From Deltaproteobacteria bacterium (GTDB lineage Bacteria; UBA10199; JADFYH01), in the NCBI GenBank assembly GCA_015233135.1, contig JADFYH010000006.1, positions 36,470-100,469 of the forward strand: a stretch of 64,000 nt of DNA, in the 5' to 3' direction. Below, piece after piece: positions 5,977 to 26,544 of this stretch; position 1 is the stretch's first letter; every line of letters starts with the position of its first letter. The notes under the pieces were generated by a model. That model saw nothing but the letters and a program-made list of their open reading frames with translations, was not told the DNA's origin and did no database searches. The position numbers and the translations under genes are program-made.

Positions 5977-6024
5977 GGGATAGGCGTAATGCGACGGAGG
6001 AAAGAGGTAAAGGGAAAACTCACT

Positions 6025-6053
6025 CTCATTCTCACGGAGACCGTGGGAATGAG
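6025..6053. repeat. Hairpin between uvrC and the second ATPase gene
   Basis: The arms CTCATTCTCACGG (6025-6037) and CCGTGGGAATGAG (6041-6053) pair over 12 of 13 positions around a three-base loop. It lies upstream of both divergent genes and no T-run follows on either side. It could be a further small palindromic element or a regulatory structure. Confidence 0.5.
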
Positions 6054-6061
6054 TTGACTCA

Positions 6062-6145
6062 TATCCGCTAAAAAAATTAAAAAATCAGCGGATAGGGTGT
6101 TTTAATATTGCGTATCCGCTACAATCTATGTATTTTCAGCGGATA
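6062..6145 (+). promoter_or_regulatory. Two equally spaced operator-like inverted repeats
   Basis: The octamer TATCCGCT or its complement AGCGGATA occurs four times: TATCCGCT at 6062-6069 and 6113-6120, AGCGGATA at 6087-6094 and 6138-6145. The two pairs have identical geometry, with 8-bp arms and a 17-bp spacer, and start exactly 51 bases apart. The last half-site ends on the A of the ATG at 6145, and the second pair brackets the predicted -10. This looks like a repressor binding cooperatively to two sites. Confidence 0.7.
6108..6136 (+). promoter_or_regulatory. Predicted promoter of the ATPase gene at 6145, leaderless
   Basis: TTGCGT (6108-6113) and TATTTT (6131-6136) are separated by 17 bases. 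The predicted transcription start falls within one or two bases of the ATG at 6145. No Shine-Dalgarno sequence precedes the start codon, so the mRNA would be leaderless. The hexamers are only moderate matches to the sigma-70 consensus. Confidence 0.45.
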
Positions 6146-7614: not shown

Positions 7615-7642
7615 CACTGCAAATTTAGCAGCTATATTTGCA
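7611..7642 (+). promoter_or_regulatory. Strong leaderless promoter with inverted repeat, ATPase gene at 7645
   Basis: A perfect -35 TTGACA (7611-7616) is followed after 16 bases by TATATT (7633-7638). The ATG is at 7645, seven bases after the -10, exactly where transcription should begin. An inverted repeat TGCAAAT (7618-7624) / ATTTGCA (7636-7642) overlaps the spacer and the -10 and could be an operator. Confidence 0.7.
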
Positions 7643-7644
7643 TA

Positions 7645-9078: not shown

Positions 9079-12000
9079 ATGACCATTCTCAGTCGTCTTC
9101 CTGTCACTTCCGTCGTCCAAAATCCAGTTTCTAGCCCAGTTTCTGGCATCGACTCTCCCACTCCCAGTTTGGAGGCAGCGGATTTTAACAGCCTGGCCTT
9201 TCAATTCGAACATTTTAATTCAAGAGAACTTTCGGATGCGGCCAGGCTACTCGAACGCGGAACTCAAGAGGCCCATGCCCTTTTGGCACAGCCTTCCGCG
9301 CAAGGCCAGGCAGAAGAGCTGCTCAAGCTGGAACACCTTTACCGCGCCGTACTTCATTATGCCCATGCGCAAGGATCTGCCAGTCAGCTAAACACCCATG
9401 AAATTGAAGCTCAACTTCAGGCCCTGGAAACGCGTTTGGGTGAAATTGCCACCTCACTTCGAAGTGAATTACAAAACGCCAGCAGCAATGGAACTCATCT
9501 GGCAAACGCAGCCCTGCTGGTACAAATATCCGATGCCTTGCTCAAGAGCGCCAGTGCCCAAAGCCAGGATCATCATGAATTAAATAACGACAGCGAAGCC
9601 AGGGAAAGAGCCAATCATCTGCTGGAAGCTTTGAGCCTAAGATCAAATCTGCTGCAGACTTCTGAGCTCAGCCATACGGTTCGCACCGATCAATTGGGAG
9701 AAATCACCCAACAACTTTTGAGTTTAAAGGATTTGGTTTCTGCGCATTCGGGCGTCTGGTCCTACACGGGAAATCAACGCGTCGAGTTTTTTGCGCAAAT
9801 CTACACACAAATACAGGCAAGTGCAGCGGCTTTTGCGGCTGGATCCGAACATGCAGAATCGGCGGGACGTTTAGTGGCAGCCATCACCCAGCATAATCAA
9901 CGCAATCTACGTCACCTGCTTTCTAGCGAAGGCCTAGATCAATTTCATAGTGCCTTGCATGAGATTCAAGAACAACTCCGTGCAGCGCAAAATGCAGACC
10001 CTGAAAACAAACAACGCATTTTACTGGGCGCTTTGGCAGATGCCGCCACGCTGCAAGATGAAGCCTCTCTGGAACAAGTAGTAAACTTGCTGAATGAAAG
10101 CGTGGGAGAAAATCGTCAGAACAAACTCGACTTGCAATACGCCATTATACAGCGTTTGCATGGTTCAAACAGCCCCGTTTTAACTCAAGCAAGCAGTAGT
10201 GCAGAAACTTTGATTCAGGATATTTTGGAACATCCCGCTGCAGAGCTTGTCACCCAAGGAAAAGAACTGGTGTTAGCCCATCTGATTTCTGAGAATGCCC
10301 CAATTCCTGCGGAACTTTCCGAAAGAGTTTTTGCTAACCTTTTGGGTTTGCAAGAACGTATTTCTCAGGCCCTGGAACGCGCACAGGGGACAGAAGCCGC
10401 TTCACTCGCCTATGCAGCCGTTGAAATTGACCGAACGCTTTCGGCCAGTCGCGAACGCGTGATTACCCATCAACTGGCTCAAACCGATAGCCTGACGCTA
10501 GAAGAAAGCCCTCAGGCAACGGCGGAACAAGGATGGAAGCTAAATCTTATTCGCGACAATGCACTTCGTTTGGCGGGCTGGGCTCGCAATCATATTCGAC
10601 CTGAAGAAATTCAACAGCAACGGGCTCAGCTCGAACACAATTTGGAGCACGAACAGCTCATTCACATTCAGGCCTTGTCTCAGGCCTTACAAAACACCGA
10701 GCTCTCTTTGCACGATCGTTTTCTCTACACTCAAGCCTTGGCCATTGCGGTACGACATTTGCCAGAAGCTTCACGCACCCCTCTACAAGCAGGCTTGCAA
10801 GAGACCTTTCGAACTTTGGCCTTATCGCGCTTACAAGATGCGAGTGTTCAAACTCAACTCTCAACTCACAGCAGCAGAAACACCGAAGCCTTGCAGGAAG
10901 CCTGTCTCACAAACTTGAACGAATGTTTGAATGGGGAGCAAGGCGCCGAATGGGCTGCCCGACTCACGGTCGAAAAATTGGATGAATTTTTAGTGGGCTC
11001 TTTCAAGGCTCAGCAACAAATTGCACGCTACACTCACAACGGTGTGTTTCAAATTCCTTCTCACTTGAATGCAAATCAATTTAACGCACTTCATCAAGCA
11101 CTGAGTCATTTTTCTTCAAACCATCTAAAAAATCAGGCCCTGCAAATAGGCGAAGCGCTTCAAAATTTTGTGGATGCCCAAAATGATCCTTTGCGTTCCG
11201 CCCGCTTTGCCCGCGAAGTAGCAGGCCTGTACCAACAAGCCGGTCTTCGACAAGAAGCTCGAGCGGCCTTGAATCGCATTCCTGTTTTGGCAAACAGGTT
11301 AGACAACAATTCGCGCGTTTCAGCCGAAGCCGCCCGCGAAATTCGTGAGCTGGCTGAAATTGTTCCTGCCCTGGGGCATTTGGGCTTAGAAGGTGAAAAT
11401 GAAGCACAGGGAATGGAATCTGCCCGCGGAAGCCTAGTGAGACTGCTGACGCATCGACCCGATAATCATTTGGCACAAGCGCTACTCTCGCAAACGGAAC
11501 AAAGTTTATTAATCGCCCGCGGAGCTGCCTCTACCCAAGTGTTGCGCGCCTTGCTTTCAAACTGGATGAATCAGCAACTGATGGAAAATCCGGATATCAA
11601 TGGTTCCACACTAGGTCACGAAATGGAGACCTTCTTGGAAGAAATACAGACAAGCATCGCCAGCGGCCGCTTTGACAATGTGGAAGCCGCGCTTCGTTTT
11701 GTGTTGCAAGATTCTCCTCGCGCTGCCGAGAGATTCTCGAACATGCAAAGGTTCTTCGTAGGGGCGGGGGTCTCCCGCCCTCAATTTGATAATCCAGGAA
11801 TGGGCGGGAGAACCCCGCCCCTACAAGATCGCCTGATGGCTTTTTCAGAAGGCGATGGGGCTTGGAACAGCTTACTCGGCGCCTGGAATGGAAGACCTTC
11901 TACGATAGACAACGCCAATACCCCAGGAGAACTCGCCTTACGTTTTATTCATCTCAATGGCGGCATCAATACTTCTCAAGCTCAATTCAACACCCATAGC

Positions 12001-15000
12001 CTTGGCCTTTGCACTAGCCTTGCGGCTCACCGTTTTGGCTACACCCAAGCGGCCACTCAAATTGCAAGAAGCCTGCAAAGCCATGCTGAAACCGCTGCTG
12101 CGGCTCAAAGTTTTTTAACCGAACTTCCTGAAGTAGAACAACTCAATCGTCTCTTCAGCACCGTAGAAGAATTTATTCATCCTAAAACTTTTGAAGCGGC
12201 CTTTAAAACCTACGGCATGTTTTTACTTCCTTTCGGTGTCGCTCGTTTGGGAGCCGTGAGTACCGAAGCGCTTTGGCTTTCTCGAGTTTGCTTGAGAGGA
12301 TCTTTCGTCGTTCGAAATATTGCAGAAGCCGCTGTATTCACCGGAATGAATGCCGGCGTTGGGGGAGCTTTTGCTGCTTATGAAAGTTTCTTCTCCAGTC
12401 ATCGTCATGCGGGCGCCCTGGCGCGTTTTGCAGAAAACACCAGTGCTAAAAGTTTGTTTAGAGAATGGGCCAGCATGTTCACCACTTTTGTCAGCTGTCA
12501 CGGGGCAGGTGTCATTGTTCGCGGAGCCACAGGCTATAGCCGTTTGGGAATGCTGCGCGCCCTCGATCATTTTGCCACGCCCCTCTGGTTTAAGCGAGCC
12601 ACCCTCGCTTCTACAAATGTGCTTTTGGGAAGCACCAATTATCTGTTGGGAGATTTAGGGAGCTTCTACGCAGGGGATCTCACCAACGAATTTTTAGGAC
12701 TACGCCCCCACGAAGAAGAAGCCAATTGGAGACTGGGTGTAGTGAGCAAAGCGTGGGAGCAACAAAAAATGCATTGGGGCGGCAAGAGTTTTCATGTCAT
12801 TGCCCCGATGAATACTTATCTCACCCACACCGAACAACATTCGGCGGTCCTAAAACGCGTTCCTGAATTCTCCGCCGCTTTTCAGGCCATGGGTTATGAA
12901 CCAGACAGCGAAGCTGCACTCAGTATGGTTCAGCCTTTGATTGCTTTTGAAAGAGGCACGGTTCCAGGATGGGTCAGCAACCCTCAAGCTTTGGATATTC
13001 CTGCGCAGCTTTCTACCCAAGAAGTAACCAGACGAGTAAGAGAACTGGTTCGAGGACGAGCCGGAAACAACAACTCCGTTTCATACCGTAGTGCTGCTGA
13101 TCCAGGTTGGGAAGGCTTAGACGCAGTGATGCGCCAATATTATCGGATTGACCCTTCTACTCAGCAACCCGGAACTCGCGGACATTTAGATCAGGACTTG
13201 GCCCGCGCCCGCCTCATTGCTTTGGGATTACAATATGCTTCTGAAGGGCATTCCGTCGAAGACTTGGTGCGCCAAGTGAAAACTTTAAATGGTGCTCAAG
13301 GGTTCGAAGGCGTGTTGCTCCGTTATGCCATGGAACGCCATTTGTCGCCCGATGAACTGGCATCGCAATTTGCTGAAAGGGGTCGTGAATTTTTAGAAGA
13401 ATTGCGTGAGCGTTGTGCGGAATGGACCAACCCTGAATTTGCCAGGAGTGAACAAAGCACGCGTTGGATGCAACAGCAGTTGGAACAAGTGTTCAGTTTA
13501 CGCAACGTGAATTTTGCAGATCTACACACAAATTTAGTAGCGGCTCGAGAAACCCTCCACACCTTTCTCAGCGCCGCTGCCTTCGAAGGAAATATTTTAG
13601 AGCGCGCTCAACTTTTGCAACACCTGCTTCCCAATTTCTTGATGAACGAAGGCCAAAATTCTCTTTCTGTCGTCGCTCAAAATTTAAGAAAACTCTATCT
13701 AGCTCAGGAAAAACAATTCGGCCCCATGAAGCAAGGAGCAAGACTTTCCTTCATGCATGAAGTGCTGGCCCGAATTTCTCCTTTAGACAATTCCACTCTT
13801 GAAACTAATTTGCACGATCTGGCAGAAGCCATTGAGAGACGTGAAGTGCGTTTGCAAGAACATGGTGAAGGACAGAATTTGCAAGTGACTGTGGGACCCG
13901 CTGTCCTCTCAAGTGAAACTGGAGAGCTGGGAAATACAGTTGAAACGCCCACTGGATCTCTCACTAAGGTTCGAGATGACAGCGCTGTAGAAACGCCTTC
14001 ACAGGACGAAAACAGTGTTGAACAAAGAGAAGCATCACGCCTTCGCGAGAATGATACAGACGATGGCAACCCAAATTTAATTCAAGATCCATCCGACATA
14101 CCCAACAACCCACTCACCGTCGCACGTTCTCGTATCGCTGCCGCAAACGACGATGGCCGTATTACTCCTCTTGAACCCAACACTCAAGTGCTGCAAGCCA
14201 CTGGAACCGACGGTGCTGCGAATCCAGGAGTTCTCCGACAAGCCGCTGCAGGCCAAGTGTTGTCTTTGCATGCCGATCGACCTCGTGCCTCAACAAACAC
14301 TGAGGAAGGAACACCCACAGTGACTCCATCCCAAGGGGATTCTAAGGGGTCGGGCGGAAATAATGGGGGACAGCCAGAGGGTGGAAAGGATGAAGCTCCA
14401 CGCAGTAGTTTTGGAGTTCACTTTGTTGAAATTAAAGCAGGAGGCAAAGCTTTTGGAATTCCTGTTAGAAACTGGCCTGCGGCCGTAGAAGTAAGAAATG
14501 TTTTTACTAAGTCTGGCAAAACGCGATTTGAATCAGCCAGTGAATTTCTCATTGCCGCACACAATCTCCCCATTAACGACAACTTCAGTAACAGCGACAA
14601 ACTCAGTGTCTTGGAAGATACTTATAAACATATCGTAAAAGATTATCTCAAAAATAATAGCATCGATATCTACGTCGCCACGCGAGGTTTGGATCGTCAG
14701 GCAGAAATCATCACCCATTTCAAACAAGTTGAAAATGAACTTATTGCCAAAGAAATTATTAAAGCCCCCATTCGTAAAAAAGGAGCTTTAATTTTAAAAA
14801 CCGAAAAAGGTGAAGCAGGTCTTTTTGTTCAATTCGGCGGACAAGCCAATGCGTATTTCAAAGAATTACAATACACCCACGATGCTCGCCAACGTGAGGT
14901 AGGTACCCTCTTAGAGAGAGCAGGAACAGTTTTGGCAGAAGATGTACGTTCAGCAGAAGCACAAGCTTCTGGCTTGTTTTTAGAAGGCTTTGATTTAAAA

Positions 15001-18000
15001 GCTTGGCTCAGCGGCAAAAAGAAAGTGCAAGAGAGTTACTTGAGTAGTTCTGCGGTCAGCCAACCCCTCATCTTTTTGACTCAAATGGCGAACTTGTTGT
15101 CTTTCATGAGAGACCAAGGTTTTGAAAGCCCCGCTGAATTCAGAAAATTGGTCAAAGGCGTTACCGGTCACAGCCAAGGGATAATGGCTGCGGACGTATT
15201 GGCCCGCTCTGCGACCTACGAAGAGTTTATTGAAAATACCATCAAGAATGCCCGCTATCTTTTATGGCAGGGCATCAGCATGGCTGAATCCTTCCCCGAA
15301 CGGGATCTGCCCTATGACATGGTGAAACATTCGATTGCTACCAAGCAAAATGAACCCACCGCCATGTTAGGCGCTTTGAAAATCAAAGAAGGAAGTGCTG
15401 AAGAGAAAAAAACTTTAGCTGCTCTTGTAGAAAACTTTAATCAAGAAATGAGAGAGCAAGGAAAACTCGACCGACTTTGTCACATCTCTCTTCGAAATTC
15501 TCCTCGCAATAACGTAGTTTCTGGTCACCCCGAAAGTATCTTCCTTTTACGTGAACGTTTACTGAAAGAAAAATTTGTAAAAGCAGAAGGAGCCATTGAT
15601 CAAAGTCTCATTCCTTTTGATCAGCGTAAACTGGAATTCACTTTGGTCGCATTCCCTGTAGCCGCTCCTTTCCACACGCCAGACTCCATGGCAAAAGCGG
15701 CTGAAATGCTTTCGGTTCATCTGGAAAGACTGGGGATTAGTTTTGATCCAGCAGGATTAGCGACACCCACTTATTCGACAGCCGATGGTAGCAACTTACA
15801 ACAGTCAAAAAATCTGACTCAAGATTATGTAAACATGCAAAGCATTGAGCCAGTGATGTGGTGGGATGAAGCCACCCAGGAAGCTACTGCCGAGAATGGC
15901 GTTTCACACATCCTTTGCTTCGGGCCTGGAGACGGCATTGCCAATGTAAGCGCGCGTAACAAACAAGGCTCAGGAGTTAAAGTAATTGCTGCCGCAGCCT
16001 TAAAGTCTCGTGATGCAGCGTTGATGCTCGATTATACGCATTTGGTAGATCACGACCCCAGCAATGTGCCCTTTGAAGCAAACTGGAAAAAAGAATATTC
16101 GCCCACTCTAGTTCGTTTGCCGGATGGTTCCAAAACCATCTCCAGTAAGTTTACACGTTTTGTTGGACGTCCTCCTATAGTCGATGGCGGCAAAACCCCT
16201 ACCACAGCCCCTGTGGGCTACATGTCGGCTGCAGTCAATTCAGGTTACCATATTGAGTGGGCAGGCGGTGGACAACCTACCGAAAAAATCTTCCGTGAAC
16301 GTCTGGGAAAAATCGTAGAAAATCTAGAGGAAGAAGGTTCGGCCTTTACGCTCAATACCCTTTTGATCGATCCTTATCTTTGGGGTCTGCATTATCCCCT
16401 GGTGCAAGTCGTAGCTAGAGAAGGTGCGCCCATTGAGGGTCTTGCGATTGGTGCAGGTGTGCCCTCACTCGAAGAAGGCACTAAAATTATCAAGGCACTG
16501 CGTGAGGCGGGCATTCAACATATTTCCTTCAAACCCGGTAGAACCGATCACATTCTCAAGATCATAGAAATCGCCAAAGCCAACCCCGACATGCAAATCA
16601 TGATGCAATGGACCGGTGGTTTAGGCGGCGGACATCATAGCTTTGAAGATAAGTACGAACCTATTTTGGAGACCTACGCAAAAATCAGGGAATGCGATAA
16701 CCTGATTTTAGTAGGGGGTTCAGGCGTGGGAGATGCAAAATCCGCTATGCATTTGATGAGTGGTCGCTGGAGTGAAGAAGTGGGCTTTGCCGCGATGCCC
16801 TTTGATGCCGTGCTGTTAGGTTCGCGCACAATGGTGGCAGAAGAATCCACCACAGCCCCTGAAGTAAAGGCTGCCATCATTGCCGCTCAGGGAGTGGATG
16901 AATCAAAATGGACAGAAACTTATAAAAAGCCCACCGGAGGAGTAGTGAGTGTTCAAACTCCAATAGAAGGCTCCGATGCTGAGATTCATGCGCTTGCTAC
17001 ACGAGGCGCACGCATGCTGAAAGATTTTGACAGAGATTATTTCAGATTAAAAGCCCCTGTCAAAGCAGGCGAAAAACCAGACCCTGCGGCAAATGACAAA
17101 TTAAGAGAAGAAGCCATCTTGAGAGATAAAGCCAAAATTATCGCCCGCATTAATGCCGATTTTCAACGTCCCTACTTCGGAAGAAATGCCAGGGGAGAGA
17201 CGGTTGATCTAGATCAAATGAACTTTGAAGAAGTGGCAAGTCGAATGATTGCCATTATGTTCAACGACCGAGCAGGGGCCAGAAGACCAGGTTGGATTGA
17301 TGTCACTTACCGCAACCGCTTGGCTTCCTGGCTTTGGCACATCGAGGCTAAGTTTGCCAAAGATCGAAAAAAGGCATTCCTTACCCAACTTCAACGCCCT
17401 GAAGATTTGGAAAAAGATCCCCGTGCATTTTTGAGATCTTTCTTTGAAAAATATTCTTCAGCCAGAGAAAGTGTTCTCGATTCTTCGGATGTAAATGAGT
17501 TTCTAAAAATTTGTATGGAGCCCGGCAAGCCCGTCAATTTTGTTCCCGTGATCGATAAGAATTTAAAAAGATGGTTAAAAAGTGATTCTCTGGAATATTC
17601 GGAAGATCTCAGTTTGATCCATGGCCAAGAAGGCGAAAGTGCTGCAAGCCTTGCGGACAGGGCCTTTGTTCTCCACGGACCCGTTGCTGCTCGCTATTCA
17701 ACAGACGTAGAACCCATTGCCAAAATTTTTGGAGATATCCATCAAGGCATGATTGATGAGTTAAACAAAAATTATAAGTCGGATAATGAAATCCCTGAAG
17801 TAGAATACCTGGGTGGTCCACCTATTCGACGAATAGATCCTTCCAAACAATTGAAGGGCATTACCATTGTTGAACAGACGGATACCCGAATGACAGAAAT
17901 CCGCATTCCGGGCGATATTGAAAAATTACCACAAGTTCAAGACTGGATCCAATATTTGGCAGGCACTGAAGCCAGCTGGATTCGCGCCGCTTTAATGAGC

Positions 18001-21000
18001 CCTCAAGCCGTGAGAGGAAAAGGAAGAACAGAAAATAAAATTCCTCTCTTCTTTAAACCTCGCGCAGGCCAAACTTTACGTATTCATCGCAATGAGGCCG
18101 GAAAAGTCACTTCACTGGAGCTTTTTGATCCTTCCGATTTAGTCATCAATCCAGAAAATAAAAATCCTTCGGTCGTACTGAGACTCGAGGGTGAAAAAAT
18201 TCTGGTTACCCGAAATCACGTTCGACCCAGCACCCAAGAAAAGGCTTCGCGTGTCATCGCTTTAAACCTGGAATATCGTTACAATCCCAAACACGGTTTT
18301 GCTCCCTTGCACGAAGACATGCCCGATCTCAATCAGCGCATCAAAGATTTTTATGCCCAACTCTGGTTTGATGACAGTATTCGGGATTTATCGGTCAACT
18401 CTCGATTTAAGCACAAGATCACCCTCACCCGAGATCAAATCAAATTATTCAATTTGGCCATTCGTAATCGCAATGAACAATTTTTTGATTGGGGTAAAGG
18501 GGCCAACTTGGTGGGTGCACCCGACATCATAATTTTGGCGGCCTGGGAATCGATGATCAAAACACTGTTCCCTCCTGAAATTAATGGCAACATCTTCCAT
18601 CTGGTGCATCAGTGGAATGAATTTGTGAAACTCGATACCTTGAAAGAAGGTGACGAAATTGAAGTCGACTTTGGCATTTCCCAGGTGATGAATAACGAAG
18701 CAGGAAAAGATATCACCGTCGAAGGAATGTTGCGAGTCAACGGAGGCGAAAAAGAACTTCCGCTCAATTCCAGTTTCCTCATTCGCGATCGCTTTACCGA
18801 TTTTGAAAACACCTTCAGCAATAAAAAGTTAACAAGAGAAGTGCAGCTCAACAAAAGTACCGATGTTGAAATTTTGACTTCAAAAAAATGGATACACTGG
18901 GAAGAAGGCTACAGACCTAAACTGGAAGACCGTTTGGTATTTGATTTAAGAATGGAATCTCGCTTTAAAGACAACAAAGGCGCTCTTGCCACCACAAACG
19001 CCCAGGGAGTGATTCGTCTGGGAGATCGCATTGTAGGGCGTGTTAAATTTGACGATAAGGATGTGAAAGAGAATGCAGTTCAATCCTACTTATTAGCCCA
19101 CGGGCACTCTCTGGAAATTCCTGAAGTACTCTTTGAAAATGGAGGCTACAATCTTATTCAAACGGACAAAAAGCATGGTTTGGATGAGATGACCGTTCCA
19201 GCAGACAATATTTTATATGCCCAGGCCTCACGGGATTTAAATCCAATTCACGTGGATCCTTTAATGGCTCAATATGCCAAACTTCCTTCTACCATCACGC
19301 ACGGTCTCTTCACCTCTGCGAATGGACGTCGTGTTTTAGAGCATTACGCAGCAAACGGAGATGCAAAACGCGTCAAAAGCTACACCGCTACCTTTGTCGG
19401 CATGGTAGAATCCGGGGATCGCTTATTCAGTCAGCTGAAACACATCGGGATGAAAGATGGATTGCAGATTGTCGAAATAGAGACCCGCAATCAACAGGGT
19501 AAATTGGTATTGAAAGGTCGAGGTCTTGTAGAGCCTCCTTTGGAATTCATAGGCTTTACCGGACAAGGCAATGCGGCCGCCATCCCTCAAGTCGTGCCAG
19601 AACTTTATAACAAATCTCCTGTGGCCAAGGCCATTTGGAACCGGGCCGACAAGCATTTCCAAACGAATTTTGGTTTTTCACTGCTGCAGATTGCAAAGGA
19701 AAATCCAAAACAAGTGCGTGTCAATTTCAACACCGAACAAGGTCGTAAAATTCGTGAGTTTTACAAAAAACATATTCCTGGCATCACAGACGAAACCGAT
19801 TACTATGTATTCCAACATCCTGAGGGGCTTATCAACTCGACCCAGTTCACTCAGGCCATTATTCTCATCCATGAAAAGGCCCTCTTCGAATATCGGCGTT
19901 CTCGCGGCTTGGTAAATAGAAATGCCTTTGTCGCCGGTCATAGCTTGGGCGAATATGGTGCGTTAGCAGCCGTATTAGGTGAAAATTATGCGCGCTTCTT
20001 AGAAACTGGCACTTCCGATAGCGGCATTCTTTCTTTGGAAGCCATTGCCGAGACCACCTTCTTGCGCGGTCTCACCATGCAAAATGCGGTACCTCGCGAT
20101 GCGAAAGGCCGTTCCCCTTATTGCATGGTGGCTCTCAATCCCTTTAATTTACGCAAAGGTTTTTCAGAAAAAGATCTCACAGCCATCTTAGGCGCGCTTC
20201 AAGGCAAGGCCAGAGAACGCTTTGTTGCAGGGAGATATCCTATCTCCAAACAGGAGCAATTTAAGGGAGTGGAACCTTTACTCGAAGCTGTAAATTATAA
20301 TATCCAGGATGCACAGTATGTATTAGCGGGAGATAGAACTACCTTAAAGGCCTTTGAATATTTGTGTGAGAAGTTACACAAGCTGGAAATTCCTGAGCGT
20401 CTTCAAAAACCAGCGGATCAAAAAGCATTCCTCACCGAAGCCTTGATTGGCCTGCTGGATGCGTCTTTAGATTTTGCCTTGGAAGAACAAGCCAAGCTGG
20501 AAGACGGATATTTCAAGACCGAAGAAATCAAGGTAGAAGGAAAATTCTGGACCGGCTTAACGGTGGATATTCCCTTCCATTCTTTGGCCTTGCGCGGTGG
20601 AGTGGAGGTCTTCCGTAAAGTGCTTCAAGAACGCTTCCCCAAGAGAATCAATCCTGCTCTTCTGGTGGGAAAATATATTCCCAATTTGAACGGTAAAGTT
20701 TTCTCTCTGGAAAGAAGCTACATCGAAGACATTGTAAAAAATTATGCAGACTCTCCTCTTCTAAAAGAAGTCTTATCAAATTGGGAGAATTACCAAGCCG
20801 AAGAACTCTGCAGCATTTTAGTCATCGAACTCTTGTCTTATCAGTTTGCCTCGCCTGTCCGATTTATTGAGACGATGGATCATCTCTTTAAAAACGGTGT
20901 AGAACGTATGCTGGAAATTGGCCATCAGCCTACTTTAAAAGGCTTTCTCGAAAATACCCGTAAAGCAATCTACAAAAATGCCTTTAGAGAAGGAAGAGAG

Positions 21001-24000
21001 ATTGGTTTTGTCACAGACGAAAAAATAGCTGATTACCAACGAGAAAATGTGGGACCGATTTTATCAGAAGATCTCATCCTGCAATTCATCGAATCTGAAA
21101 AACCAAAAGAAGAAAAAGAAGAAGCGAGTGTTTCTTCCGAAACTACTCCCACTGCCACATCCCCTGCCCCTGCCGCAGCGGCAACTGAGAAAAAAGTGGT
21201 CAGCAGTGGATACAAGGCCCCGGAAGATGCAGCCCCTCGCGCCTTAGATGCCTTGAAGCTCCTCACGATGGTTGCCTTCAAAAAGAAATTCGCTGACATC
21301 AAAGACGATGCGACCATTGAAGAAGTGGCCGCAGGAGATTCTGCCCCAGCCAATGAACTCGTCACCAACGCCAAAAATGAATTTGGAGGAGTCAACTTTG
21401 CCGGTAAGGGAAGTGTGAAGTTTAGTGATCTGGCGACGATGGTCACGAACTACAAAAAGATTGGCCCCAAGGTAAATGAATTGCTTACCCAAAATGTGGC
21501 CTCCAAATTACCCGGTGGTTTCAGTGTTTCGAAACTGCGTGAGTATCTGAAAAGTGAGTGGGCCTTAGGAGAAGGCCGCAGCGAAGGGGTATTGATTTTC
21601 GCTCTGGTCTCTGCCCCAGAAAAACGTTTTGAAGATGAAACGGCCGCTAAGGTTTGGATTGATAGAGTGGTTCAAGAATATGCTACTGCTCAAAAAATCG
21701 AACTCGTGAAACCTAAAGATTTGGTACAAGCCGGCGGCGAGGGTGGAAACGCCGTGGATGAGGCGGTACTGAACGAATACAAAGCCAGAGGAGAAGCCCA
21801 CATTAAAGAAATGATGGCGGCCCACCTTCACTTTTTGGGAGAAGATCCACAGGCTGCGGAAAAAGCCATACAAATGGAAAGACAGTTGCGAAACGATCTT
21901 GAGAAAGAACTGGACGCCATCCGCAAAGAACATGGCCAGGAATATCTGGATGGCATTCGCGGAGTATTCTCAGGCAAGAAATTCAGAAATTATAATGCTG
22001 CTTGGGCCTGGGGAAGACAAGACGCCCTCATTTTATTCCACGATCTGATGAATCGTCGCCTGACCCTCGAAGACGATGCAATCTTTGAAAAGGCATTTCA
22101 TCTGCTCAATCGGGCAACACCCGAATTGCTCAAGCAAATCAACTTCCATGCAGAAACCGCCCAAAAAGCCAAACGCAAAGAGGTGGCTGAATTCTTTGCC
22201 GATATGGCGGCAAAAATCCAAACCCGCCTCGACACCAAAACCTCACCCCGCACACAAATGCTGGAAGGCTCCAAAGCTCCTCGCACCACCTTTAAAGAAG
22301 ATGGCAGCATGGAGTTTAAAGAGGTTGCTCGCGAAGGAATTAAAACGGGCGTCGATTATGTGAACGAAATGGAACGAGGAGGCCAGGTAGAAGTCACTCG
22401 TGAAAATGATGAGAATAAACGAACTTTGCTGCAAGGCTTCCTAAGAACACAGAAAAAACTAGTTAAAGGCTTTAGAGATGCTTTAACACAAGACCTGGAT
22501 GTTCGAAGATTATTAAACTCAGCTCTTAATGCAGTACGGGAGATCAGCGGCAGCCTGAACGGTAAAAAATCGGTCGCCTATCTGAGAGCCGTAGAAATTG
22601 ATTCTCCTAAAGAAACGAACCTGGAACAAACCCAAGCCTACTTTGAAACCTTGCATGACATGGCCAAGAATGGGCTTTCGTTAAAAGGTAAAGTGGCTTT
22701 GGTCACCGGTGCAGGCCCCGATTCTATTGGGCTGGCCATGATAGAAGACCTGCTACGAGCCGGTGCCACCGTCATCTGCACTACCTCTACCTTTAGCAAA
22801 GAACGGACTGATTTCTACCGCCGCATTTACAAAAATTTTGGCGCATTGGAAGGAGAACTCATTGTTCTTCCCTTCAATCAAGGCTCTGTCGCCGACGTGA
22901 ATGGCCTGGTCGATTACATCTACAGCCCTACAGACGCCAAAGAAGGCCGCGCTAAAGGGTTGGGTATGGATATCGATTTCATCATCCCCTTTGCGGCCAT
23001 GGAAGAACGCGGCAAAAAGATTTCCAATTTGGATAACAAATCGGAACTCTCCCACCGCATCATGCTCACCAATACCTTGCGATTGATTGGCGCCGTTCGA
23101 AATAAAAAGGTGGAGAAAAATATCCTCAACCGCCCTGCACATGTGGTGGTGCCTTTATCTCCCAATGATGGAGAATTTGGTGGCGATGGTTTGTATGCCG
23201 AATCCAAGTTGGGATTAAGATCGCTCTTGAAGAAAATCGGGTCCGAAGATCACAGCAATTATTTGAGTATATCGGGTGCCATCATTGGTTGGACGCGCAC
23301 ACGCCTCATGAGAGAAAATAATGCCGTCGCCGAAGAAATGGAAAAACGTGGTGTGAGGACTTTCAGTCCTCGCGAAATGGCCTTCAATCTGTTGGCCTTG
23401 TTACATCCTCGCATGATTCGCGAAGCCCAAAAACGTGCCCTGTTACTGAACTTAAATGGCGGCTTTGAAGAAATTCCAGAATTGGCAAACTTGAATCGGA
23501 GTTTAGGCAAAGAAATTTTGGAGAGAAAAACTCTAAAAGAAGCCCTCTTCAAAGAAAATGCACGCGAACTCGAAGCCCTGGGACGCACGGAGACAAAAGC
23601 CCGCGAAAGTAGTGCCAAAGCCAACTTTAACTTTGGCTTCCCGGCCCTGCCTTCTCTGGAAAGACTGCAAGAATTGAAACGTCTGCAAGGCATGCACGAC
23701 CTTTCTAAAGTAACCGTCGCAGTAGGATTTGGCGAAGTGAGCCCTTGGGGGAATGCGCGTACGCGTTGGGAGATGGAAAGTACCGGTGAATTTTCAATGG
23801 AAGGCTGCATTGAGATGGCCTGGATCATCGGCAAAATCAAGTACCACAATGGCCCCCTGGAAATTGAAGGAAAGATGCAAAACTACGCCGGCTGGATCGA
23901 CATCAAGACCAAAGCCCCCGTGGCGGCTCATGAAGTGAAAGCAAAATATGAAAAGGAAATATTGGAACATTCGGGCATACGCATCGTGGAACCCGAACTG

Positions 24001-26037
24001 GTGCATGGTTATGATCCCAGTAAAAAGATGTTCCTCCGCGAAGTAGCCCTGACCGAGGATTTAAACAATATTGAGGTAGCCAACGAAGCGGAAGCCGATA
24101 ATTTTATTCTTCAGCATGGAAAAGACAAAGCCATTAAACAACAAAGAAACGGGACCTGGTTTGTCACTCTAAAAGCAGGGGCGGTGATCCGTGTGGCAAG
24201 GGCCATGAAGTTCAACCGCTTTGTTGCCGGACAAATTCCCACGGGATTTGATCCTACTCGTTACGGGATTCCAGAAGACTTCGCCAAAAAAGTGGATCCC
24301 ACTACCCTCTATACCCTCATCTCTACCGCAGAGGCGTTGATTTCTGCGGGTGTCACTGATCCTTACGAATTCTATCAATACATTCACAACTCCAAATTGG
24401 GAAACACCATTGGAGGAGGAATGGGTGGAATGAACAGTATTCGTTTGAGTTTCAGAGAGCGTTTGTTGGAAGCTCAGGTCCAAAGCAATATCCTTCAGGA
24501 ACAATTAATCAACGTCATCCCCGCCTGGGTAAATATGATGCTGCTCTCGGCCTCTGGCCCCGTCATTACCCCCGTGGGAGCTTGTGCCACAGCCGCGGCT
24601 TCCATTGAAGCCGGTGCAGGACTGATTGAACAAGGCAAAGCAAAAATCGTCATGGTGGGCGGTGCGGATGATTTTGGTGAAGAAGGTTCTTACGAGTTTG
24701 CAAACATGCAAGCCACCAACAATTCTGAAGAAGATATTGCCGCAGGGCGCGTACCCGCTGAACATTGTCGCCCAGCTACCGATACCCGGGCAGGCTTCCT
24801 CGAGTCTCAAGGTGCCGGTGTCCAAATTTTGATGTCTGCTGATATGGCCATTCTCATGGGACTTCCTATTTACGGCATTGTGGCTCTCACTCATACCGCG
24901 ATGGATGGTCAGGGCTCTTCTGTCCCTGCACCGGGCCAGGGAATTTTGACTTCCGCTCAAGAAATAAAAAGCGCTTGGCGAGAAAATGATTTACTCGATT
25001 TTAATACTCGGCGTCGTGAGGTGCAAAGCCGAGTGAACAAGATTAGAGCCAGTGAACGCAGGCAAATCGATAAAATGAACCGCACTGCCACTGAACTAAG
25101 AGCAAGTGCTGGTGAAAGTGCAGCCCAGGCCTTTATCTGGGGAGAATCGGCAAGAATCGCCATCGACACACAAGCCGATATCAGTATGGTGCATCAAAAG
25201 TATGGTCAGGGTTTCTGGCGAACGCACAACGCAGCCATTGAACAACTCATCAACAATAATGAAGGCAGATTCAGTGATGAGGTAAAAGCAGAAGCCTGGA
25301 AACATTATATCTCTCCCTTGAGAGGCGCTTTGGCGGTTTGGGGACTTACCCCCGATGACATCGAATTTGCGTCGTTCCATGGAACCTCCACCAACGCAAA
25401 CGATTACAACGAAAGCCAGGTCAACGATAAACAACAACTTCATCTGGAAAGAAGCACTGGAAATCCCTTGCTCACCATCTGGCAAAAATGGCTTACCGGA
25501 CATCCTAAAGGCGCTGCCGCTGCCTTTATGGCCAATGGTGCCTTGCAAGCCATGCAGACAGGCATTGTCCCAGGAAATCAAAACCTGGATAACGTGGACC
25601 CTGCCCTGCGTAAAAATGAAAACCTGGTCTTCCTGGATAGCAGCGTCAATCATGGTCGATCGCTTAAAGCAGGCCTACTCAAGAGCTTTGGCTTCGGCCA
25701 GGCCGGCGGAGAAGTATTACTCATTAACCCGGAATATCTCTTTGCCTCTCTGGAACGACCTGTTTTTGATCGATATTCTCAAGATAGAAATAAACGCCTC
25801 AACGCAGCTCATCAATTTAACATGAACACTCTGCTCGGAAGACAAAATTTAATTAACTTTAAGTCTGCTCCTCCCTATCTTCCTGAAGATCGGGATCGAG
25901 TTTTCACCGATCCTTCCGCAAGGGCAAGATGGAGTGAAAAGTTTAAATGCTGGATTTATCATTCGGATGATACAGAGGAAGCACGACGTAAAAAGGCCGC
26001 AAAAGCCGCGGATGCTGCTGCTCCTGTCTCTGCTTAA
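9079..26037 (+). CDS. Giant fungal-type type I fatty acid synthase with N-terminal extension
   Basis: This 5,652-residue chain should carry out complete fatty acid synthesis. Residues 1-1770 are a helical, Ala/Gln/Glu-rich extension without a recognised domain, ending in an acidic Gly-rich linker. Then follow, with approximate limits: AT 1778-2340 (GHSQG, Ser2032); ER 2350-2700, an FMN barrel with WTGGLGGGHHSFED near 2510; DH and its helpers to 3490 (DLNPIH, Asp3386 and His3391); MPT 3493-4010 (FTGQG, then GHSLGE with Ser3622); an Ala/Pro linker; ACP 4047-4200 (GDSAPANE, Ser4088 as probable pantetheine site); KR 4535-4800 (VTGAGPDSIG, Tyr4706, Lys4710); KS 4880-5620 (Cys5169, His5434, Lys5477, His5475). 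The order is that of fungal Fas1 plus Fas2 minus the PPT domain. GAGGAG eight bases before the ATG supports the start. A palindromic repeat is inserted at residues 894-916. No thioesterase is seen. As in other type I synthases, MPT probably releases acyl-CoA. Confidence 0.93.
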   Translation: MTILSRLPVTSVVQNPVSSPVSGIDSPTPSLEAADFNSLAFQFEHFNSRELSDAARLLERGTQEAHALLAQPSAQGQAEELLKLEHLYRAVLHYAHAQGSASQLNTHEIEAQLQALETRLGEIATSLRSELQNASSNGTHLANAALLVQISDALLKSASAQSQDHHELNNDSEARERANHLLEALSLRSNLLQTSELSHTVRTDQLGEITQQLLSLKDLVSAHSGVWSYTGNQRVEFFAQIYTQIQASAAAFAAGSEHAESAGRLVAAITQHNQRNLRHLLSSEGLDQFHSALHEIQEQLRAAQNADPENKQRILLGALADAATLQDEASLEQVVNLLNESVGENRQNKLDLQYAIIQRLHGSNSPVLTQASSSAETLIQDILEHPAAELVTQGKELVLAHLISENAPIPAELSERVFANLLGLQERISQALERAQGTEAASLAYAAVEIDRTLSASRERVITHQLAQTDSLTLEESPQATAEQGWKLNLIRDNALRLAGWARNHIRPEEIQQQRAQLEHNLEHEQLIHIQALSQALQNTELSLHDRFLYTQALAIAVRHLPEASRTPLQAGLQETFRTLALSRLQDASVQTQLSTHSSRNTEALQEACLTNLNECLNGEQGAEWAARLTVEKLDEFLVGSFKAQQQIARYTHNGVFQIPSHLNANQFNALHQALSHFSSNHLKNQALQIGEALQNFVDAQNDPLRSARFAREVAGLYQQAGLRQEARAALNRIPVLANRLDNNSRVSAEAAREIRELAEIVPALGHLGLEGENEAQGMESARGSLVRLLTHRPDNHLAQALLSQTEQSLLIARGAASTQVLRALLSNWMNQQLMENPDINGSTLGHEMETFLEEIQTSIASGRFDNVEAALRFVLQDSPRAAERFSNMQRFFVGAGVSRPQFDNPGMGGRTPPLQDRLMAFSEGDGAWNSLLGAWNGRPSTIDNANTPGELALRFIHLNGGINTSQAQFNTHSLGLCTSLAAHRFGYTQAATQIARSLQSHAETAAAAQSFLTELPEVEQLNRLFSTVEEFIHPKTFEAAFKTYGMFLLPFGVARLGAVSTEALWLSRVCLRGSFVVRNIAEAAVFTGMNAGVGGAFAAYESFFSSHRHAGALARFAENTSAKSLFREWASMFTTFVSCHGAGVIVRGATGYSRLGMLRALDHFATPLWFKRATLASTNVLLGSTNYLLGDLGSFYAGDLTNEFLGLRPHEEEANWRLGVVSKAWEQQKMHWGGKSFHVIAPMNTYLTHTEQHSAVLKRVPEFSAAFQAMGYEPDSEAALSMVQPLIAFERGTVPGWVSNPQALDIPAQLSTQEVTRRVRELVRGRAGNNNSVSYRSAADPGWEGLDAVMRQYYRIDPSTQQPGTRGHLDQDLARARLIALGLQYASEGHSVEDLVRQVKTLNGAQGFEGVLLRYAMERHLSPDELASQFAERGREFLEELRERCAEWTNPEFARSEQSTRWMQQQLEQVFSLRNVNFADLHTNLVAARETLHTFLSAAAFEGNILERAQLLQHLLPNFLMNEGQNSLSVVAQNLRKLYLAQEKQFGPMKQGARLSFMHEVLARISPLDNSTLETNLHDLAEAIERREVRLQEHGEGQNLQVTVGPAVLSSETGELGNTVETPTGSLTKVRDDSAVETPSQDENSVEQREASRLRENDTDDGNPNLIQDPSDIPNNPLTVARSRIAAANDDGRITPLEPNTQVLQATGTDGAANPGVLRQAAAGQVLSLHADRPRASTNTEEGTPTVTPSQGDSKGSGGNNGGQPEGGKDEAPRSSFGVHFVEIKAGGKAFGIPVRNWPAAVEVRNVFTKSGKTRFESASEFLIAAHNLPINDNFSNSDKLSVLEDTYKHIVKDYLKNNSIDIYVATRGLDRQAEIITHFKQVENELIAKEIIKAPIRKKGALILKTEKGEAGLFVQFGGQANAYFKELQYTHDARQREVGTLLERAGTVLAEDVRSAEAQASGLFLEGFDLKAWLSGKKKVQESYLSSSAVSQPLIFLTQMANLLSFMRDQGFESPAEFRKLVKGVTGHSQGIMAADVLARSATYEEFIENTIKNARYLLWQGISMAESFPERDLPYDMVKHSIATKQNEPTAMLGALKIKEGSAEEKKTLAALVENFNQEMREQGKLDRLCHISLRNSPRNNVVSGHPESIFLLRERLLKEKFVKAEGAIDQSLIPFDQRKLEFTLVAFPVAAPFHTPDSMAKAAEMLSVHLERLGISFDPAGLATPTYSTADGSNLQQSKNLTQDYVNMQSIEPVMWWDEATQEATAENGVSHILCFGPGDGIANVSARNKQGSGVKVIAAAALKSRDAALMLDYTHLVDHDPSNVPFEANWKKEYSPTLVRLPDGSKTISSKFTRFVGRPPIVDGGKTPTTAPVGYMSAAVNSGYHIEWAGGGQPTEKIFRERLGKIVENLEEEGSAFTLNTLLIDPYLWGLHYPLVQVVAREGAPIEGLAIGAGVPSLEEGTKIIKALREAGIQHISFKPGRTDHILKIIEIAKANPDMQIMMQWTGGLGGGHHSFEDKYEPILETYAKIRECDNLILVGGSGVGDAKSAMHLMSGRWSEEVGFAAMPFDAVLLGSRTMVAEESTTAPEVKAAIIAAQGVDESKWTETYKKPTGGVVSVQTPIEGSDAEIHALATRGARMLKDFDRDYFRLKAPVKAGEKPDPAANDKLREEAILRDKAKIIARINADFQRPYFGRNARGETVDLDQMNFEEVASRMIAIMFNDRAGARRPGWIDVTYRNRLASWLWHIEAKFAKDRKKAFLTQLQRPEDLEKDPRAFLRSFFEKYSSARESVLDSSDVNEFLKICMEPGKPVNFVPVIDKNLKRWLKSDSLEYSEDLSLIHGQEGESAASLADRAFVLHGPVAARYSTDVEPIAKIFGDIHQGMIDELNKNYKSDNEIPEVEYLGGPPIRRIDPSKQLKGITIVEQTDTRMTEIRIPGDIEKLPQVQDWIQYLAGTEASWIRAALMSPQAVRGKGRTENKIPLFFKPRAGQTLRIHRNEAGKVTSLELFDPSDLVINPENKNPSVVLRLEGEKILVTRNHVRPSTQEKASRVIALNLEYRYNPKHGFAPLHEDMPDLNQRIKDFYAQLWFDDSIRDLSVNSRFKHKITLTRDQIKLFNLAIRNRNEQFFDWGKGANLVGAPDIIILAAWESMIKTLFPPEINGNIFHLVHQWNEFVKLDTLKEGDEIEVDFGISQVMNNEAGKDITVEGMLRVNGGEKELPLNSSFLIRDRFTDFENTFSNKKLTREVQLNKSTDVEILTSKKWIHWEEGYRPKLEDRLVFDLRMESRFKDNKGALATTNAQGVIRLGDRIVGRVKFDDKDVKENAVQSYLLAHGHSLEIPEVLFENGGYNLIQTDKKHGLDEMTVPADNILYAQASRDLNPIHVDPLMAQYAKLPSTITHGLFTSANGRRVLEHYAANGDAKRVKSYTATFVGMVESGDRLFSQLKHIGMKDGLQIVEIETRNQQGKLVLKGRGLVEPPLEFIGFTGQGNAAAIPQVVPELYNKSPVAKAIWNRADKHFQTNFGFSLLQIAKENPKQVRVNFNTEQGRKIREFYKKHIPGITDETDYYVFQHPEGLINSTQFTQAIILIHEKALFEYRRSRGLVNRNAFVAGHSLGEYGALAAVLGENYARFLETGTSDSGILSLEAIAETTFLRGLTMQNAVPRDAKGRSPYCMVALNPFNLRKGFSEKDLTAILGALQGKARERFVAGRYPISKQEQFKGVEPLLEAVNYNIQDAQYVLAGDRTTLKAFEYLCEKLHKLEIPERLQKPADQKAFLTEALIGLLDASLDFALEEQAKLEDGYFKTEEIKVEGKFWTGLTVDIPFHSLALRGGVEVFRKVLQERFPKRINPALLVGKYIPNLNGKVFSLERSYIEDIVKNYADSPLLKEVLSNWENYQAEELCSILVIELLSYQFASPVRFIETMDHLFKNGVERMLEIGHQPTLKGFLENTRKAIYKNAFREGREIGFVTDEKIADYQRENVGPILSEDLILQFIESEKPKEEKEEASVSSETTPTATSPAPAAAATEKKVVSSGYKAPEDAAPRALDALKLLTMVAFKKKFADIKDDATIEEVAAGDSAPANELVTNAKNEFGGVNFAGKGSVKFSDLATMVTNYKKIGPKVNELLTQNVASKLPGGFSVSKLREYLKSEWALGEGRSEGVLIFALVSAPEKRFEDETAAKVWIDRVVQEYATAQKIELVKPKDLVQAGGEGGNAVDEAVLNEYKARGEAHIKEMMAAHLHFLGEDPQAAEKAIQMERQLRNDLEKELDAIRKEHGQEYLDGIRGVFSGKKFRNYNAAWAWGRQDALILFHDLMNRRLTLEDDAIFEKAFHLLNRATPELLKQINFHAETAQKAKRKEVAEFFADMAAKIQTRLDTKTSPRTQMLEGSKAPRTTFKEDGSMEFKEVAREGIKTGVDYVNEMERGGQVEVTRENDENKRTLLQGFLRTQKKLVKGFRDALTQDLDVRRLLNSALNAVREISGSLNGKKSVAYLRAVEIDSPKETNLEQTQAYFETLHDMAKNGLSLKGKVALVTGAGPDSIGLAMIEDLLRAGATVICTTSTFSKERTDFYRRIYKNFGALEGELIVLPFNQGSVADVNGLVDYIYSPTDAKEGRAKGLGMDIDFIIPFAAMEERGKKISNLDNKSELSHRIMLTNTLRLIGAVRNKKVEKNILNRPAHVVVPLSPNDGEFGGDGLYAESKLGLRSLLKKIGSEDHSNYLSISGAIIGWTRTRLMRENNAVAEEMEKRGVRTFSPREMAFNLLALLHPRMIREAQKRALLLNLNGGFEEIPELANLNRSLGKEILERKTLKEALFKENARELEALGRTETKARESSAKANFNFGFPALPSLERLQELKRLQGMHDLSKVTVAVGFGEVSPWGNARTRWEMESTGEFSMEGCIEMAWIIGKIKYHNGPLEIEGKMQNYAGWIDIKTKAPVAAHEVKAKYEKEILEHSGIRIVEPELVHGYDPSKKMFLREVALTEDLNNIEVANEAEADNFILQHGKDKAIKQQRNGTWFVTLKAGAVIRVARAMKFNRFVAGQIPTGFDPTRYGIPEDFAKKVDPTTLYTLISTAEALISAGVTDPYEFYQYIHNSKLGNTIGGGMGGMNSIRLSFRERLLEAQVQSNILQEQLINVIPAWVNMMLLSASGPVITPVGACATAAASIEAGAGLIEQGKAKIVMVGGADDFGEEGSYEFANMQATNNSEEDIAAGRVPAEHCRPATDTRAGFLESQGAGVQILMSADMAILMGLPIYGIVALTHTAMDGQGSSVPAPGQGILTSAQEIKSAWRENDLLDFNTRRREVQSRVNKIRASERRQIDKMNRTATELRASAGESAAQAFIWGESARIAIDTQADISMVHQKYGQGFWRTHNAAIEQLINNNEGRFSDEVKAEAWKHYISPLRGALAVWGLTPDDIEFASFHGTSTNANDYNESQVNDKQQLHLERSTGNPLLTIWQKWLTGHPKGAAAAFMANGALQAMQTGIVPGNQNLDNVDPALRKNENLVFLDSSVNHGRSLKAGLLKSFGFGQAGGEVLLINPEYLFASLERPVFDRYSQDRNKRLNAAHQFNMNTLLGRQNLINFKSAPPYLPEDRDRVFTDPSARARWSEKFKCWIYHSDDTEEARRKKAAKAADAAAPVSA
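11758..11824. repeat. Family B palindromic repeat inserted in the FAS gene
   Basis: The 23-base arms 11758-11780 and 11802-11824 are reverse complements at 22 positions, around a 21-base loop. The outer ends read GTAGGGGCG...CGCCCCTAC. The element is read in frame as VGAGVSRPQ...MGGRTPPLQ, residues 894-916, unlike the helical sequence around it. A shorter relative with the same outer ends lies in cysS. Confidence 0.9.
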
Positions 26038-26100: not shown

Positions 26101-26544
26101 ATGAAATCCGATTTAGAAAAACTGCTTTATAATTCAAGTCTAGCACTCAGCGGAACTTCGTTTGGAATTGGAGTAGACGTAGAAATTTTGGAAGGGTGGA
26201 AAGATCGTCTTCAAAATCAAGATTTTTTAAAGGCAAATTTCAGCCCTCAAGAAATCGAATATTGTCAAACCACCCATCATCCCCAGCAAAGCCTTTTAGG
26301 CCGCTGGTGCGCGAAAGAAGCGGTTTTAAAGGCCATGTCGAGCTTTAAACCTCATGAGGCTATTGTCAGGGGTTTTGGACAAGACCTTTCTGAAGTGGAA
26401 ATCATCCCTTCCGCAGTAAAAACCCCGCTCTGTATTCTACACGGAAAACTCGAACAACGCCGAATCGAACGCGGTATACAGCAAATTAAAATATCCATCA
26501 GTCATAGTGAACAATATGCTATTGCAGTGGCAATTTGTCTTTAA
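26101..26544 (+). CDS. Phosphopantetheinyl transferase, fungal Fas2 PPT-domain-like
   Basis: This 147-residue protein should attach 4'-phosphopantetheine to the ACP of the synthase encoded just upstream. It has the AcpS-type motifs [10 protein letters not shown] (Asp26 as Mg ligand), [10 protein letters not shown] and [12 protein letters not shown] (Glu as second ligand), and ends with [17 protein letters not shown]. From memory, this series, including VEII near the middle and the closing VSISH...AVAV pattern, follows the PPT domain at the C-terminus of fungal Fas2 more closely than a stand-alone bacterial AcpS. In fungi this domain is fused; in mycobacteria AcpS is separate. No Shine-Dalgarno sequence is visible, so expression may depend on the FAS transcript. 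Its stop codon overlaps that of convergent uvrB in TTAA. Confidence 0.9.

Follow-up and report, generated by a model that had tools for sequence, protein, structure and literature searches.

In the accessible parts of PMC9260719, type I fatty acid synthases (FAS) are assigned to most eukaryotes and to Corynebacteriales, and fungal enoyl reductase is described, after Bukhari et al. 2014, as sister to that of the CMN bacteria (Corynebacteria, Mycobacteria, Nocardia). Excerpts of PMC6972935 also name the CMN group as the bacteria with type I FAS and describe the scaffold modules of the enzyme as variable and gene splitting as late; a single-gene form is said to have come first in a section of PMC7300031, and a type I FAS is mentioned for Brevibacterium ammoniagenes in a passage of PMC12014800. 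A literature search on type I FAS in Myxococcota, deltaproteobacteria, myxobacteria or eukaryogenesis gave no such report by title and beginning of abstract, most subscription papers and preprints lying outside this search. Here we analyse a 64,000-nucleotide stretch (the window) of contig JADFYH010000006.1 from an uncultured Deltaproteobacteria bacterium (assembly GCA_015233135.1), in which a preliminary description had proposed a complete fungal-type type I FAS. From the sequence evidence presented below, we consider it likely that this gene encodes a single-chain fungal-type FAS which would be activated by a predicted neighbouring AcpS and make the acyl-CoA of the cell, and belongs to the bacterial branch most plausibly ancestral to eukaryotic FAS.

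Architecture of the giant gene

An uninterrupted open reading frame (ORF) of 5652 amino acids (aa), with an ATG start and stop-free throughout, runs from position 9079 to 26037 on the forward strand. Its FAS part comprises residues 1778-5652 behind a 1777-aa N-terminal extension; the start at position 14410 given in the preliminary description is right for the FAS part (residue 1778) but not for the gene, which begins 1777 codons earlier. A Pfam scan of the ORF found the fungal FAS domains in the fungal order of acetyl transferase (AT), enoyl reductase (ER), dehydratase (DH), malonyl/palmitoyl transferase (MPT), acyl carrier protein (ACP), ketoacyl reductase (KR) and ketoacyl synthase (KS). 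The features of the gene and of the acpS gene behind it are:

9079..26037, + strand: FAS giant ORF, extension plus single-chain fungal-type FAS I (ORF call, Pfam)
9079..14409, + strand: N-terminal extension, 1777 aa (no match in a Pfam scan of residues 1-1777)
14707..16089, + strand: AT (SAT 58 bits); GHSQG Ser at 15172-15174, conserved; outer limits approximate
16117..17727, + strand: ER, flavin mononucleotide (FMN) enoyl reductase with helical part, GGHHS (Fas1-AflB-like_hel 347 bits); His conserved; start approximate
17920..18372, + strand: FAS_meander beta-sheet domain (108 bits)
18412..19494, + strand: DH region including hot-dog MaoC, DLNPIH (FAS1_DH_region 27 bits, MaoC 83 bits); Asp and His conserved
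19555..20979, + strand: MPT, GHSLGE (Acyl_transf_1 86 bits); Arg and His conserved; limits approximate
21223..21705, + strand: ACP, Fas_alpha_ACP, single copy (102-109 bits); carrier Ser conserved
21784..22383, + strand: FAS_I_H structural helical domain (143 bits)
22627..23619, + strand: KR, YAESK (adh_short 21.5 bits); Tyr and Lys conserved; limits approximate
23692..25809, + strand: KS with Cys, two His and Lys (ketoacyl-synt N 73 bits, C 40 bits); limits approximate
26101..26544, + strand: acpS, predicted phosphopantetheinyl transferase gene, 147 aa (PF01648 58 bits, TIGR00556 78 bits)

A further Pfam match, FAS1_thioest_ins (39 bits), lies between the FAS1_DH_region and MaoC matches. The adh_short score of the KR is below the cut-off of 26.6 bits, and the placement of this domain rests on its alignment position and the conserved Tyr and Lys. 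In a phmmer search against PDB sequences, the best matches were to fungal subunits: the alpha subunit was matched in one stretch (1311 bits, core residues 2131-3850) and the fungal beta subunit in another (1086 bits, core residues 75-2132), and the match to mycobacterial FAS (1004 bits) was broken into 5 stretches. All 16 active-site positions checked by alignment across the seven domains, which we take to be the catalytic ones, carry the expected residue in the window FAS, and the same residues are invariant in 27 of 27 eukaryote and 12 of 12 actinobacterial alignment rows. The yeast-like motifs quoted in the preliminary description are present in the translation, and the core of 3838 residues lies near the eukaryote median of 3844 and above the CMN median of 3083. 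Domain order, matches to both PDB subunits, active sites and the bacterial contig together bear out that this bacterial genome encodes a type I FAS of the fungal kind.

Iterative type I polyketide synthases and polyunsaturated fatty acid synthases start with the KS and have a polyketide-type AT and reductases; in contrast, the window FAS has the AT first, the KS last and FAS-only structural domains between them. With the type I FAS of eukaryotes, fungi included, it shares domain order, active-site residues, insertions and core length, and FAS is on one chain in the fungi and protists among the listed homologues. It differs from them in its bacterial host, its branch beside the eukaryotes, its extension and the lack of a C-terminal phosphopantetheinyl transferase (PPT) domain. 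The ORF ends after the KS, and the PPT domain (PF01648), which the domain lists give for 26 of the 27 eukaryote FAS rows used, is absent. The acpS gene follows in the same reading frame, with a single stop codon separating the two, and its predicted product likely stands in for the absent domain. Neither the absence of the PPT domain nor the acpS gene had been mentioned in the preliminary description, to which the 1777-residue extension is a further addition.

Relatives of the enzyme and the origin of eukaryotic FAS

PF08354 matched 13 of the 46 genomes in our set of the host's class (G000-G045, G000 being the window's own genome), that is, 12 of the 45 others. A scan of those GTDB 220 genomes that carry names, made with two peptide patterns, found 18 loci, every one of them in metagenome-assembled genomes (MAGs) labelled Deltaproteobacteria, Myxococc-, Proteobacteria or 'bacterium'; PF08354 confirmed 17 of these 18 genomes, three of which are class members. 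The remaining MAGs, with genomes of 4.9-11.4 Mb, are taken as lying outside the host's class and are called other MAG rows below. The best 120 of 265 protein matches (1753 candidates scored) were the window's own protein, two proteins that lack PPT (P0002 and P0003), and sequences either eukaryotic by name or nameless, with no actinobacterial name among these 120. P0003 and class genome G015 share an N-terminus with 100% identity across 490 residues.

For the comparisons, clade A comprises the window FAS, P0002, P0003, G027 and G021, plus G015 and G042 where included, and clade B comprises G022, G034, G016 and G036, plus G035 where included. The window core is 44-47% identical to clade A, 36-43% to eukaryotes, 32-34% to clade B, 30-32% to Actinobacteria, 29-33% to other MAG rows, 31% to G013 and 23-24% to G019 and G023. 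Of the 3709 alignment columns typical of eukaryotes (27 rows), the 12 actinobacterial rows leave 770 empty, and these 770 are filled to 87% by the window FAS, 89% by P0002 and P0003, 44% and 32% by a six-row and a four-row set of other MAG rows, and 28% by clade B (G022, G036). Two insertions in the MPT (1772-1796 and 1993-2029, given like the following as core positions and not as named scaffold modules of the fungal barrel) have residues in clade A and eukaryotes but in almost no other rows. The insertion before the KR (2600-2729) is full in clade A and eukaryotes only and partial elsewhere, and that within the KS (3525-3634) reaches 60% filling in the six-row set of other MAG rows as well. 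CMN FAS I shares the single chain, the domain order and, in Tsukamurella, the downstream acpS with the window FAS, but differs in its shorter core, the 770 empty columns and its separate clade. The FAS of other MAGs and clade B are mostly on one chain, with acpS near most loci that include the 3' end, but have core medians of 3225-3447, fewer insertions and a branch outside clade A plus eukaryotes.

FAS trees were built with FastTree (67 rows), IQ-TREE under LG+G4 (38 rows) and IQ-TREE under LG+C20 (30 of the 67 rows), rooted on Actinobacteria. All three gave the same branching order, in which two groups of other MAG rows are followed by clade B and then by clade A together with the eukaryotes. 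The last grouping was supported at 100/100 in the LG+C20 tree, as were the eukaryotes alone, and at 0.973 in the 67-row FastTree tree; under LG+G4, eukaryotes form one clade with a support of 97 in the Shimodaira-Hasegawa-like approximate likelihood-ratio test (SH-aLRT), the window FAS standing beside it and not inside. Six single-domain trees all recovered clade A plus eukaryotes at SH-aLRT 100, with the eukaryotes as one clade in five of them (not DH). An approximately unbiased (AU) test rejected a clade A plus B without eukaryotes (log-likelihood difference 836, p 7e-6), and a KS tree that included three FabF-type rows placed the root outside clade A plus eukaryotes (98/100).

An AcpS-like ORF was present in 18 of the 35 FAS loci scanned; where the locus includes the FAS 3' end, one lies within about 0.7 kb in 18 of 20 (19 of 21 counting the window). 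In G013 it is upstream of FAS, and none was found near the FAS of G016 and G034, whose loci include the 3' end. FAS-adjacent acpS genes also occur in Tsukamurella (directly downstream), other MAGs and clade B of the class. In a tree of 36 AcpS and PPT rows, the three clade A AcpS are united with the 17 eukaryotic PPT domains in a single clade (100/98, stem 1.22), and the remaining bacteria lie outside it, arranged much as they are for FAS. This tree supports the kinship and the idea of a fusion, but not a direction.

Taken together, the evidence favours, with somewhat less assurance than the function and placement of the enzyme itself, the reading that eukaryotic FAS is a captured FAS-acpS pair of this class with acpS fused as the PPT domain, that the insertions were gained stepwise in bacteria, and that clade B and the Myxococcota-like MAG enzymes are surviving simpler forms. 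A FAS-acpS gene pair of this lineage would have entered an early eukaryote, where loss of the stop codon between the two genes would have turned acpS into the C-terminal PPT domain of fungal FAS. The preliminary description had allowed for either transfer or an ancient bacterial origin; trees, AU tests and insertions fit the bacterial origin, its direction being inferred, better than a transfer from fungi.

Several observations weigh against a bacterial origin. Clade A and the eukaryotes are sisters, clade A appears as one clade in 26% of bootstraps (LG+C20), and their common stem is long (1.11), so that nearer donors may be missing. The 67-row tree sets the long-branched G013, G019 and G023 beside clade A plus eukaryotes (0.52 for their own join). 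The KS tree rooted on FabF has an open base and an outgroup branch of 2 x 3.37, and Actinobacteria group there with other MAG rows; rooting the full trees on Actinobacteria is therefore an assumption. Finally, the three clade A AcpS take positions among eukaryotic rows of PPT (supports 74-91), and taken at face value this would favour the reverse direction.

That reverse direction, in which an early eukaryote passed its FAS to clade A, with the PPT part becoming a separate gene for AcpS, would account for these AcpS positions, weak as they are, for the sister relationship on a long stem with shared insertions, and for the patchy occurrence of FAS in the class (13 of 46). We nevertheless regard it as unlikely, because three successive levels of bacterial outgroups lie outside under the Actinobacteria root, the KS tree root also falls outside clade A plus eukaryotes, and the eukaryotes are one clade in the FAS trees without clade A inside. 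The presence of FAS with an adjacent acpS in Tsukamurella, other MAGs and clade B also counts against it. So does the result that eukaryotic PPT can be constrained to a single clade at a cost of 4.4 log units without rejection (p 0.088); a constraint that unites the three clade A AcpS is not rejected either (p 0.37).

The capture of a bacterial FAS-acpS pair would bear on a wider question. In the parts of the literature available to us, fungal FAS is set beside the Corynebacteriales enzyme, whereas the bacterial enzymes of clade A stand nearer to eukaryotic FAS than do those of CMN bacteria. Their activating enzyme is still encoded by its own adjacent gene and simpler relatives are at hand, so that stepwise assembly of a 2.6-MDa machine becomes testable with living sequences. 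Ideas on the origin of eukaryotes link some genes to deltaproteobacterial-type bacteria, and a lipid-synthesis gene would be added to them.

The window FAS has a single ACP, and two copies are present in the bacterial clade A proteins P0003, G015 and G027 and in 11 of 24 eukaryote rows scanned, including several protist and fungal FAS. As a possible feature uniting clade A with the eukaryotes, the tandem ACP was set aside, since the copies of G027 and of several fungi pair within one protein and the ACP tree thus gives no decision. The FAS of G016 and G034 are in two ORFs (L101 367-8755; L108 6310-15706), resembling the fungal alpha/beta splits; the split places differ, being near the MPT/ACP border or within the MPT, and they are either real splits or frameshifts. 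Very divergent relatives occur in G019 (L102), G023 (L106) and G013 (L098). By alignment, the KR Lys is replaced by Gln in two of these three and the ACP Ser is lacking in two of three, and perhaps these enzymes have been repurposed.

Fatty acid synthesis in the host and its class

Bacterial type II FAS performs the same chemistry with separate proteins, and the window KS and MPT match the FabF and FabD models far below cut-off. G000 was searched with models for FabZ (TIGR01750), FabH (PF08541) and PlsX (PF02504), and no match to any was found. The ketoacyl-synthase matches in G000 are the window FAS and two ORFs, both thiolases by Pfam. Regarding the type II set for which the preliminary description had suggested a search, FabH, FabF and FabZ were not found in G000, the searches not extending to FabG, FabD or enoyl reductases. 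Across the class, FabZ at cut-off and PlsX were each found in 0 of 46 genomes, with weaker FabZ matches in four (best 112 bits, cut-off 155). In 14 control genomes, the models matched 9 (FabZ), 8 (PlsX) and 11 (PF08541).

The gene order around acpP was also read, and G000 has the following run:

L126 700-4260 (G000:C24), - strand: acpP-rpiB-glyA-nrdR-ribD without fabF (gene-order reading)

In deltaproteobacteria, fabF usually lies between acpP and rpiB. Of 21 neighbourhoods read, 9 show this order on one strand with no match of the fabF type, those of G000 and eight other class genomes, and it looks like the remnant of a fab operon; the remaining 12, all six of other MAGs included, have the order incomplete, interrupted by the end of a contig, in a different orientation or not at all. 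G000 also encodes a 907-aa PlsB-like acyltransferase (TIGR03703 389 bits, cut-off 618.5; GPAT_C 174 bits). The lack of FabZ, FabH and PlsX matches together with this PlsB-like glycerol-3-phosphate acyltransferase (GPAT) fits a cell that makes acyl-CoA by FAS I. As judged from these gene contents, the window FAS is probably the sole fatty acid synthase of the cell and likely releases acyl-CoA. In such a cell, the AT would load acetyl and the MPT malonyl from CoA, the ACP, activated by the predicted AcpS encoded directly behind FAS, would carry the chain through KS, KR, DH and ER, and the MPT would hand the finished chain back to CoA, from which the PlsB-like acyltransferase would place it into phospholipid.

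Other findings count against this reading. A standalone AcpP is kept in G000, the FabH-type model PF08541 matches 17 of the 46 class genomes (13 over cut-off), G000 not among them, and the four weak FabZ matches count here as well. Moreover, 25 of 46 class genomes have neither FAS-I nor, by our reading, a non-thiolase condensing enzyme, and eight further ones have a condensing-enzyme match that is not thiolase-like (weak in G007). Matches were read as thiolases from the short stretch around the active site that they cover, with a Pfam check for the two G000 ORFs only, and some of the 25 genomes are incomplete (for example, 67% and 73%). With no synthase detected in these 25, class members seem able to live without FAS, and the FAS-less ones are possibly fatty-acid auxotrophs.

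These 25 genomes also speak for another view of the window FAS, as the maker of a special lipid or polyketide and not a housekeeping synthase, as do its long N-terminal extension, the changed KR Lys of the relatives in G019 and G023, and the ACP Ser lacking in two of the three divergent class rows. Every checked active site is intact in the window FAS, the only other condensing enzymes of G000 are thiolases, and a PlsB-like GPAT is present; such a special role is accordingly quite improbable. The searches as a whole point to a bacterial class in which the standard type II FAS proteins were largely not found.

Sideways movement of a CMN-family FAS I into a deltaproteobacterium would agree with the papers cited above, where bacterial type I FAS means the CMN enzyme, and with the single chain and downstream acpS of that enzyme. 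Identity to CMN FAS is lower than to eukaryotes and to clade A, the 770 eukaryote-typical columns are absent in CMN, eukaryotes plus Actinobacteria were rejected by the AU test (log-likelihood difference 794, p 1e-9) and recovered in none of the six domain trees, and the probability of such a transfer is close to nil. The window FAS is outside the actinobacterial clade in the FAS tree, the AU test and the domain trees. None of the six domain trees, KS and ER among them, places it with Corynebacteriales, so that the placement inside that group which the preliminary description had named as overturning its proposal did not occur.

The contig is 100 kb long and belongs to a 2.61-Mb genome of 64 contigs given as 98.33% complete and 0.08% contaminated. 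The neighbours of FAS in the window are ordinary bacterial genes (uvrC, uvrB, cysS, ispD, ispF and a carD-type gene). Among 120 listed UvrB matches, 15 have an organism name, of which 9 are 'Deltaproteobacteria bacterium', the first one included and one bearing a strain name, 4 are 'bacterium' or 'uncultured bacterium', 1 is Desulfobacterota and 1 Pseudomonadota, in keeping with the deltaproteobacterial look of the neighbours in the preliminary description and with a contig that is not fungal or actinobacterial contamination. Fungal or other assembly contamination, which the 36-43% identity of the core to eukaryotic FAS might suggest, has a negligible chance given the uninterrupted ORF without PPT, the acpS and bacterial housekeeping genes on the same contig, the relatives in 12 other class genomes and the low contamination figure.

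The N-terminal extension and other genes

The extension is a lineage-specific addition, and part of it resembles another giant protein of G000:

10999..13008, + strand: shared module, residues 641-1310 (similarity to giant acetyl-CoA carboxylase of G000)
L129:479-11929 (G000:C26), - strand: giant acetyl-CoA carboxylase, 3816 aa (Pfam)

Segments within residues 658-1299 are similar to the N-terminal region of this 3816-aa ORF (E 1e-28 and 9e-13, 29-30% identity), which by Pfam is a single-chain acetyl-CoA carboxylase with biotin carboxylase, ACC_central and carboxyl transferase domains; a biotin-attachment motif was sought in it and none was found. Because the module is common to the FAS and the carboxylase, enzymes acting one after the other, it may mean co-localisation, and a tethering role for the extension is our guess. 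Weaker matches to the module occur in giant proteins of G015 and G021, and against co-localisation, the module-bearing protein of G015 was judged by eye, without a Pfam scan, not to resemble an enzyme of lipid metabolism. Homology of the module with the N-terminus of the G015 and G021 FAS was considered and found no support (hhalign probability 0.7%). The predicted structure of the module has a mean predicted local distance difference test score (pLDDT) of 43, too low for a fold search.

Elsewhere in the window, three AAA-family ATPase genes lie around uvrC (2732-8898), two with DUF4143 and one with DUF234. A 732-aa protein with a Gly/Ala-rich hydrophobic part and no Pfam match is encoded at 34263-36461 (- strand), and a 3263-aa Calx-beta/Ig repeat protein at 49400-59191 (- strand) stands beside a 1539-aa HEAT-AAA-VWA protein at 59290-63909 (- strand). 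On another contig of the genome (L154 1341-5357, + strand, G000:C3), a 1338-aa protein combines AMP-binding, carrier and hexapeptide-repeat domains and, from this domain content, is possibly a small ligase resembling non-ribosomal peptide synthetases.

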